DNA of 64,000 bases, from contig JAGCCZ010000005.1 of NCBI GenBank assembly GCA_017651425.1, positions 1-64,000 on the forward strand, given 5' to 3'. Source of the stretch: Bacteroidales bacterium (GTDB lineage: Bacteria > Bacteroidota > Bacteroidia > Bacteroidales > WCHB1-69). This document shows, piece after piece, positions 22,972-26,006 of the stretch. The notes beneath the pieces were generated by a model that worked only from the letters and a program-made list of their open reading frames with translations, had not been told where the DNA came from and did not search any database. Made by a program: the position numbers and the translations under genes. Every line of letters starts with the position of its first letter. Position 1 is the stretch's first letter.

Positions 22972-24480
22972 TTATCCGCAATAGAAATATTCATTGACCA
23001 TTTGGGTCATGACATCAGGGTTCTTAAGGATTTCCTTACGAATATTCTGATCCTTATAGGATTTGAGCTGTTTGACGATATCGTCGATCATCTCGCGGTT
23101 GAAGACACCGTGAGCCTCGAAGATGGCTCTATTCTTGCTCAGTTCGTCGGCGGAATCCCAGCAGGATGCCGGCAGTTGAGCCAAGCTTTCCACGAGCTTC
23201 TGGTTTTCGGGACGATGGATGTCCACATCGACGTAGGTCTTCTCAGCGAAATTGAGGGCGCCCTCCATCTCGAAGCCATGGCGTGCGGCGCAAGCGAGGC
23301 CGGCGAGCAGCAAGTAGATGTCGGCGGAACCGTCCGGGCAGCGGAACTCCACGGTCTGTTTTTGGGAGCGGTCGGCCTTGACAGCCTTCTCCAGCGGGTT
23401 GAGTTCGGCCACAATGTCGTTCTTGTGCGTCCAGCCGAGGGGCACGCGCACGAGCACAGAGCGATTTCTGTCGCCCCAGCAAATGGAGGTCGGAGCCTCC
23501 TGGTGCGGCACGAGGCGGAAATAGGAGGTTGGGTTGGTATTGCCGAAAGCGGTCAGGGAACCGGCGCAGGCCATGTAGCCCGCGATGGCGGTCTTGGCGA
23601 TGGAGTTGAGCTTGCCCTTCGAGACGTATTGGTTTTTGCCCTTTTCATCCACCACGCGGGTGTGAATGTGCAAACCGCTGCCAGCCTTGCCCGTGGTGAT
23701 CTTCGGAGAGAAGGTCACATCGAGGCCGTATTGGTAGGCAAGGTTGCGGATAATCCACTTGGCCAACACGAGTTGGTCAGCGGCTTCGCAAACATCGGTG
23801 ACGAGGAACTCGATTTCGTTCTGCTCATAGATCTTGCCGTTGAGCGTGAAGTTGCCCACCTCGGAGTGACCATACTTGATGAGACCGCCGGCCTTCGCGA
23901 TGTTGTACATGCACTCGGCACGGAAAGCCTCGAATTTCGTGAACGGGGAGGATTCGTGATACCCGCGCTGGTCGGGAATGGTATAGAGCTCTTCGGCATC
24001 GCCGATGACGTAGTACTCCAACTCGCCCATGGCCTGGAAGTACATGCCCGTGACATCGGTGAACGACTTGGCCGCTTTGCGCAGGATGTACTCCGGAGAG
24101 TTTTCCAGCGGTTGACCGTCTTTGTTATAGTAAGAACAGAGGAAAGAAAGCGTGGGAATCTCCGCGAAAGGATGCACGAAAGCCGTGCAGAAGCGCGGGA
24201 TCACATAAAGGTCGGAAGAACCGGCATGGATGAATGCGGGGAAGATGTTGGAGCCGTCCACACGCTCGCCGTTGGAGAGAATCTGGTCCATGTACTCACG
24301 GCTGTGCAAAACAAAGCCCAGGGTTTTGATACGACCGTCGCCTGCCACATAGTGGAAGTTGATCATTTTAATGTCATTTTCCTCGACATATTTCATGATG
24401 TCGGCCTTTGTAAACTCCTTGGGGGACTTTTTCAGATAGTTGACCAAGGGGTTCATGCTCATTGTCGTGTTTTCTTTCAT
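22972..24480 (-). CDS. glnA: Glutamine synthetase
   Basis: 502-residue glutamine synthetase making glutamine from glutamate, ammonia and ATP. The beta-grasp domain opens with NDIKMINFHYVAGDGRIKTLGF. The catalytic domain shows AMGELEYYVIG, GKAGSGLHIHTRV (metal and ammonia site), NPTSYFRLVPHQEAPTSICW and VEFRCPDGSADIYLLLAG. It differs in detail from E. coli GlnA (no adenylylation-loop Tyr motif seen) and is nearer the class found across Bacteroidota. Promoter 36 bases upstream, divergent from metK. Confidence 0.9.
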   Translation of the reverse strand: MKENTTMSMNPLVNYLKKSPKEFTKADIMKYVEENDIKMINFHYVAGDGRIKTLGFVLHSREYMDQILSNGERVDGSNIFPAFIHAGSSDLYVIPRFCTAFVHPFAEIPTLSFLCSYYNKDGQPLENSPEYILRKAAKSFTDVTGMYFQAMGELEYYVIGDAEELYTIPDQRGYHESSPFTKFEAFRAECMYNIAKAGGLIKYGHSEVGNFTLNGKIYEQNEIEFLVTDVCEAADQLVLAKWIIRNLAYQYGLDVTFSPKITTGKAGSGLHIHTRVVDEKGKNQYVSKGKLNSIAKTAIAGYMACAGSLTAFGNTNPTSYFRLVPHQEAPTSICWGDRNRSVLVRVPLGWTHKNDIVAELNPLEKAVKADRSQKQTVEFRCPDGSADIYLLLAGLACAARHGFEMEGALNFAEKTYVDVDIHRPENQKLVESLAQLPASCWDSADELSKNRAIFEAHGVFNREMIDDIVKQLKSYKDQNIRKEILKNPDVMTQMVNEYFYCG

Positions 24481-24639: not shown

Positions 24640-24647
24640 TACTTTTG
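24640..24647 (+). promoter_or_regulatory. Promoter -7 element for metK
   Basis: TACTTTTG followed by CCGCCGG. It leaves an unusually long leader of about 115 bases before metK, in which the riboswitch-like structure lies. Confidence 0.65.
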
Positions 24648-24657
24648 CCGCCGGAAA

Positions 24658-24710
24658 TCGTGGACAGATTTGTAATGATTGCAACCACTCAAAAAAATGC
24701 TAAAACATTC
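24658..24710 (+). promoter_or_regulatory. Candidate SAM-II-like riboswitch in the metK leader
   Basis: The leader can form a compact H-type pseudoknot. Stem 1 is GTGG (24660-24663) with CCAC (24685-24688). Its loop contains GATTT, AATG (24674-24677) and ATTGCAA. The 3' tail contains ATGCTAAAA and then CATT (24706-24709), which pairs with the loop AATG. Order and key segments (GAUUU, AUUGCA, GCUAAA) resemble the SAM-II/SAM-V aptamer, and metK makes SAM, so feedback control fits. Stem 1 is only 4 pairs and the comparison is from memory. Confidence 0.5.
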
Positions 24711-24770
24711 CGGCTTTGCCCATGATTTTCCGCGCAATTTATTTATTATAAACACTTTAAAACGTTAGTC

Positions 24771-26006
<1,236 letters not shown>

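Follow-up and report, generated by a model that had tools for sequence, protein, structure and literature searches.

A SAM-II (long loops) riboswitch in the metK leader of Bacteroidales and its probable control of translation initiation

Introduction

The closest described relatives of the element considered here are the S-adenosylmethionine (SAM) binding pseudoknots SAM-II, known from alphaproteobacterial metA leaders (RF00521), SAM-V (RF01826) and SAM-II (long loops) (RF01726). The last has had Bacteroidetes members on record since 2010 (Weinberg et al., 2010; PMC2864571), and Bacteroides thetaiotaomicron was already within the metA-element alignment of 2005 (Corbino et al., 2005; PMC1273637). 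We have analyzed the leader of metK, the gene for S-adenosylmethionine synthetase, in positions 1 to 64,000 of contig JAGCCZ010000005.1 from a Bacteroidales bacterium (assembly GCA_017651425.1), a stretch of 64,000 nucleotides (nt) that is called here the window and to which all coordinates refer. A sequence-only reading had described in this leader a pseudoknot resembling the core of SAM-II or SAM-V. The presence of the aptamer is ordinary, its class having been published for Bacteroidetes since 2005–2010, and our main result concerns the way in which it may act: the SAM-II (long loops) riboswitch probably provides negative feedback on metK, most likely at the initiation of translation.

Identity of the aptamer

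The entire window was compared with 4227 Rfam families (cmscan). RF01726 matched the metK leader over its full length (model positions 1–60 of 60) with 56.8 bits against a gathering score of 44 (E = 3.1e-08), and there was no second Rfam match over the gathering score anywhere in the 64 kb. When just the leader was scanned and E values up to 10 were allowed, RF01726 was still the sole family to match; the models of SAM-V (RF01826) and proteobacterial SAM-II (RF00521) gave nothing, and membership in either family was dropped. The hallmarks of SAM-V were also missing, as the linker UCAAAAAAA contains no P3 hairpin and no Shine-Dalgarno sequence was found near stem P2a. Spermidine-sensing SAM variants were ruled out, that class being derived from SAM-I and not from SAM-II. 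The element is almost certainly a member of the known SAM-II (long loops) family. The covariance models proposed in the sequence-only reading bear out its interpretation as a SAM-II-type aptamer, through RF01726 and with no match to SAM-V.

The segments that had been named in that reading (GTGG, GATTT, AATG, ATTGCAA, CCAC, ATGCTAAAA and CATT) were all found at the places given for them (Table 1). Together they contain every pocket residue of the SAM-II/SAM-V core, i.e., GAUUU (24667-24671), AUUGC (24678-24682) and GCUAAA (24699-24704). The role of GATTT in the binding triplex is the one expected by homology with that core. The aptamer stands in the leader of metK, as expected of a SAM-II (long loops) member, which should precede a methionine or SAM gene, and negative feedback on metK would be consistent with all the results.

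About 180 related leaders were compared overall. We collected 150 loci, of which 144 could be parsed, the metK start being no more than 190 nt from the tail of the aptamer. Stem P1 had all four pairs formed in every one of the 144, and the changes were two-sided (GTGG/CCAC in 134, GCGG/CCGC in 5, ATGG/CCAT in 4 and GGGG/CCCC in 1). The pseudoknot stem P2a was evaluated in the 101 leaders with an A before TTGC. Its two inner pairs, 1 and 2, were nearly invariant (formed in 95% and 93%), and pair 3 was formed in 79% compared to 45% with shuffled tails, a level that none of 500 shuffles reached. Pair 4, formed in 46% against 48% after shuffling, was unsupported. The covariation anticipated in related metK leaders has thus been found in stem 1 and, together with conservation, in three pairs of the AATG/CATT pseudoknot, while the fourth pair behaves no better than shuffled sequence. 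The idea of a compensatory change was correct in kind, AATG/CATT standing here in place of the ATTG/CAAT and ACTG/CAGT of other families, a difference that on sequence comparison is compensatory at the third pair.

The remaining 43 of the 144 parsed leaders (L007, L013 and L096, for example) carry a variant aptamer in which C replaces the A just before TTGC. This position is the equivalent of SAM-V A18, whose pairing partner is an A holding SAM by its aminoacyl end, and in these leaders the P2a pairing departs from the usual register. Three leaders with the aptamer almost at the metK AUG all belong to this type.

A mid segment complementary to the aptamer and to the start region

Side-by-side examination of the leaders revealed that a mid segment (M), located between the aptamer tail and the metK AUG, is complementary to the 5′ half of the aptamer itself. 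The window pairs CGGAAATCGTGG with CCATGATTTTCCG, and different letters serve in other leaders: GATTTGAATTGA with TTCAATTC (L049), GAGTTGA with CTCAACTC (L017) and GAGTAGC with ACTACTC (L095). We compared the pairing energy of each strand with its own partner and with partners exchanged between species. For the 5′ strand and M the own partners paired better both in the genus (-16.0 vs -14.7 kcal/mol, n=36, p=0.0003) and in other Bacteroidales (-14.65 vs -12.82 kcal/mol, n=93, p<1/3000). The same was found for M and the start region, taken as -22 to +18 (-8.23 vs -6.89 kcal/mol in the genus and -8.37 vs -7.23 kcal/mol in the others, p<1/3000 in both). No own-versus-swapped effect appeared when the start region was reversed before pairing with M (p=0.87 in the genus, 0.10 in the others), nor between the 5′ strand and the start region (p=0.85 and 0.32).

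For replication, metK loci of named genomes were retrieved separately and gave leaders non-identical to the earlier ones; 38 were of suitable length, independent in sequence and not fully so in phylogeny, as the same genera were allowed. Both pairings were recovered, the 5′ strand with M (-15.37 vs -13.51 kcal/mol, n=38, p<1/5000) and M with the start region (-9.75 vs -8.24 kcal/mol, p=0.0002), and the controls were null (p=0.45, 0.67 and 0.93, the second value being that of M with the reversed start region). Upstream of the start of 33 metK genes without the riboswitch motif there was no such complementarity (p=0.15). These comparisons support, from sequence, that the two sites complementary to M coevolve with it between species.

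Folding gave a compatible prediction. With the aptamer locked, opening -15 to +12 was calculated to cost 8.05 kcal/mol in the genus, compared to 6.43 without the lock, and 6.83 kcal/mol in other Bacteroidales, compared to 4.95. When M was shuffled the change was -0.65 and +0.36 kcal/mol, respectively, and when it was swapped +0.46 and +0.87. In the free state of the window leader, 24652-24672 is predicted to pair with 24711-24732, leaving 24733-24767 open; in the aptamer-locked fold 24718-24727 pairs with 24767-24776 and the AUG is covered. The corresponding change in opening cost was 2.84 kcal/mol, compared to -0.71 (standard deviation 1.38) with shuffled M, a value reached by 1% of the shuffles, and was stable across three assumed start sites.

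Coevolution and folding together make a three-strand translational platform fairly likely. The SAM-II pseudoknot, judging from sequence and covariation, would begin at the 5′ end of the mRNA or no more than a few bases from it, and bound SAM would lock P1 and the P2/P2a pseudoknot, as is known for the class. Without SAM, M would pair with the 5′ strand of the aptamer and the start region would remain open. With SAM, the locked 5′ strand would release M, which could then capture the AUG through the pairing predicted for the locked fold. Repression would in this way hide the start codon instead of a Shine-Dalgarno sequence. Ribosomes of this phylum, which ignore Shine-Dalgarno pairing, would sense the structure near the start and metK would be repressed. 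In Prevotella bryantii, protein output fell to 0.12 of the level of an unstructured control when a structure of -5.2 kcal/mol lay near the start (PMC3155529), and in Flavobacterium johnsoniae structure around the start tunes initiation (PMC6847099). As Bacteroidetes ribosomes do without Shine-Dalgarno pairing and start structure is costly to them, a hidden AUG region is plausible as the OFF state.

Several results weigh against this platform. In the genus, the 5′ strand still paired better with its own M when M was reversed (-8.47 vs -7.89 kcal/mol, p=0.013), about half of the real effect; with this control unclean, the p values of the genus are to be taken as somewhat inflated by relatedness. 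The M bases engaged in the two pairings overlapped barely more than at random (0.53 vs 0.49, p=0.06; 0.40 vs 0.34, p=0.02). The change calculated for the window dropped to 0.2–0.9 kcal/mol once coding sequence up to 24900 was included, and about one third of the leaders had little or no predicted change.

Even so, we favor, slightly less firmly than the feedback itself, that the SAM-II metK riboswitches share this platform across Bacteroidales, with M handed over by the aptamer to the start codon upon SAM binding and the two sites coevolving from genus to genus. It seems to be present in most Bacteroidales metK leaders with a SAM-II aptamer, including gut and rumen genera, and offers a testable account of translational repression by a riboswitch in a phylum that does not read Shine-Dalgarno sequences. 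If true, other riboswitches of the phylum may also be worth examining for a shared strand that captures the start codon. In the literature open to search we found no described expression platform for Bacteroidetes SAM-II, and this is no proof that there is none.

Alternative modes of control

The alternative that survives best, although we regard it as unlikely, is that the SAM-II riboswitch works through termination of transcription, either intrinsic or Rho-dependent. Proteobacterial SAM-II switches have mostly been predicted with intrinsic terminators (PMC2258182, PMC1273637), but the window leader contains no terminator-like site and such hairpins lie 3′ of the aptamer in just 6 of the 144 leaders, on which grounds intrinsic termination was dropped. 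The pyrimidine-rich M could, when free, act as a Rho site. Some members of the genus have a U-tract after the anti-aptamer helix; termination there would occur in the absence of SAM, opposite to what feedback requires. In three leaders (L147, L213 and L230) the aptamer is located 9–13 nt before the AUG, leaving no room for a terminator and pointing to translation.

Slightly less probable still is a direct block of the ribosome by the pseudoknot, with no exchange between an anti-aptamer and an anti-start strand. The distance argues otherwise, as in the window about 60 nt lie between the end of the aptamer tail and the AUG, and 60–120 nt separate GCTAAA from the AUG in most leaders, and a direct block would leave the coevolving M segment without a reason. 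We judge it very improbable that the conserved AUG of the aptamer (AAAAAAUGCUAAA) opens an upstream frame with translational coupling to metK, SAM acting by hiding that AUG. The frame of the window (24697-24768) has 23 codons and its stop lies 2 nt before the metK AUG, but this candidate was rejected since a control frame is equally open (32/37 against 33/37 in the genus, 66/107 against 59/107 elsewhere), and 10 of the 144 leaders have no aptamer AUG. That the element is a chance likeness or a decayed relic, an idea fed by its short stem 1 and by nothing else, is already refuted and has next to no probability, as the E value and the recurrence before metK in the genus place it far beyond chance, and retention before metK across the order and covariation in P1 and P2a agree.

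Features of the leader and distribution

The features of the leader are listed in Table 1. TAnnTTTG is the consensus of the Bacteroidetes -7 box. Counted from the box of the window, transcription would begin at about 24649-24654 and the metK leader would measure about 115–120 nt, in agreement with the unusually long leader (about 115 bases from its promoter) that had been noticed earlier. A TAnnTTTG-like box stands 5′ of 125 of the 144 parsed aptamers, mostly 28–32 nt ahead of TTGCAACC. A divergent gene resembling glutamine synthetase (22972-24480, minus strand) shares the intergenic region with metK. Bacteroidales of rumen and gut contain relatives of the metK protein, up to 77% identical.

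Table 1. Coordinates of the metK leader and its parts in the window
Feature	Position	Strand	Evidence or partner
Promoter -7 box TACTTTTG, TAnnTTTG type	24640-24647	+	Bacteroidetes-type box
SAM-II (long loops) aptamer, RF01726	24654-24713	+	cmscan, 56.8 bits
P1 5′ strand GTGG	24660-24663	+	Partner 24685-24688, covarying
GATTT, expected third strand of the binding triplex	24667-24671	+	Strongly conserved in aligned leaders
P2a 5′ strand AATG	24674-24677	+	Partner 24706-24709; 3 of 4 pairs supported (covariation or conservation)
ATTGCAA	24678-24684	+	Sequence
ATTGC, P2 5′ strand of the SAM pocket	24678-24682	+	Aligns with SAM-V A18, U19, U20, G21
P1 3′ strand CCAC	24685-24688	+	Partner 24660-24663, covarying
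Tail segment ATGCTAAAA	24697-24705	+	Sequence
GCTAAAACATT, P2 3′ strand (pocket U, A, A, A) and P2a 3′ strand CATT	24699-24709	+	
P2a 3′ strand CATT	24706-24709	+	Partner 24674-24677
Mid segment M, predicted anti-aptamer and start-codon-capturing strand	24712-24735	+	Folds; own versus swapped partners
Translation start region with the metK AUG (24771-24773)	24759-24776	+	Predicted capture by M in the aptamer-locked fold
metK, S-adenosylmethionine synthetase, 411 amino acids	24771-26006	+	Open reading frame

The source genome of the window has one copy of the aptamer. RF01726 matched in 38 of the 40 genomes of the genus. A true loss of the riboswitch in the other two was discarded, the explanation being that no metK was found in one (G010) and that metK is cut by a contig end in the other (G011). 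In the order Bacteroidales 197 of 295 genomes matched, and nearly all related loci precede metK; about one third (98/295) were without a match, the filters of the sample search being stricter. One genome (G121) holds two copies, the first before metK (L106, contig 228) and the second (L099, contig 269) before a gene that, from its N-terminal reading alone, resembles the methionine synthase metH. Another locus (L157), in a record named Alphaproteobacteria bacterium MAG, combines a Bacteroidales-like metK (68% identity) with a SAM-II aptamer of Bacteroidales type; the record is probably a misnamed or mixed assembly, and transfer may be the origin.

Comparison with known systems

Compared with RF01726 as published (PMC2864571), the window is an otherwise typical member, with a full-length match, the same phylum and the same P1 and P2 layout; its P2a is AATG/CATT where the Rfam consensus, as we read it, has ACTG/CAGT. 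With the alphaproteobacterial SAM-II/metA element (RF00521, PMC1273637) it shares the H-type pseudoknot, the GAUUU, AUUGC and GCUAAA core and, as predicted for the window, a transcription start a few nt before P1. However, the window has a P1 of four pairs, the P2a strand AACC/GG is replaced, there is no terminator and the model does not match. SAM-V (RF01826, PMC6061858) has the same pocket, with equivalents of A18, U19, U20, G21, U47, A48, A49 and A50, and likewise turns translation OFF by hiding the site of initiation, as is predicted in our case; the window differs in its linker without a P3 hairpin, in a P2a without a Shine-Dalgarno site and in giving no match to the model. Finally, the metA riboswitch of S. 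meliloti (PMC9373788) is, like the one described here, a SAM-II aptamer with translational control (predicted for the window), but it hides the Shine-Dalgarno sequence, whereas in the metK leader a separate strand is predicted to hide the AUG region.
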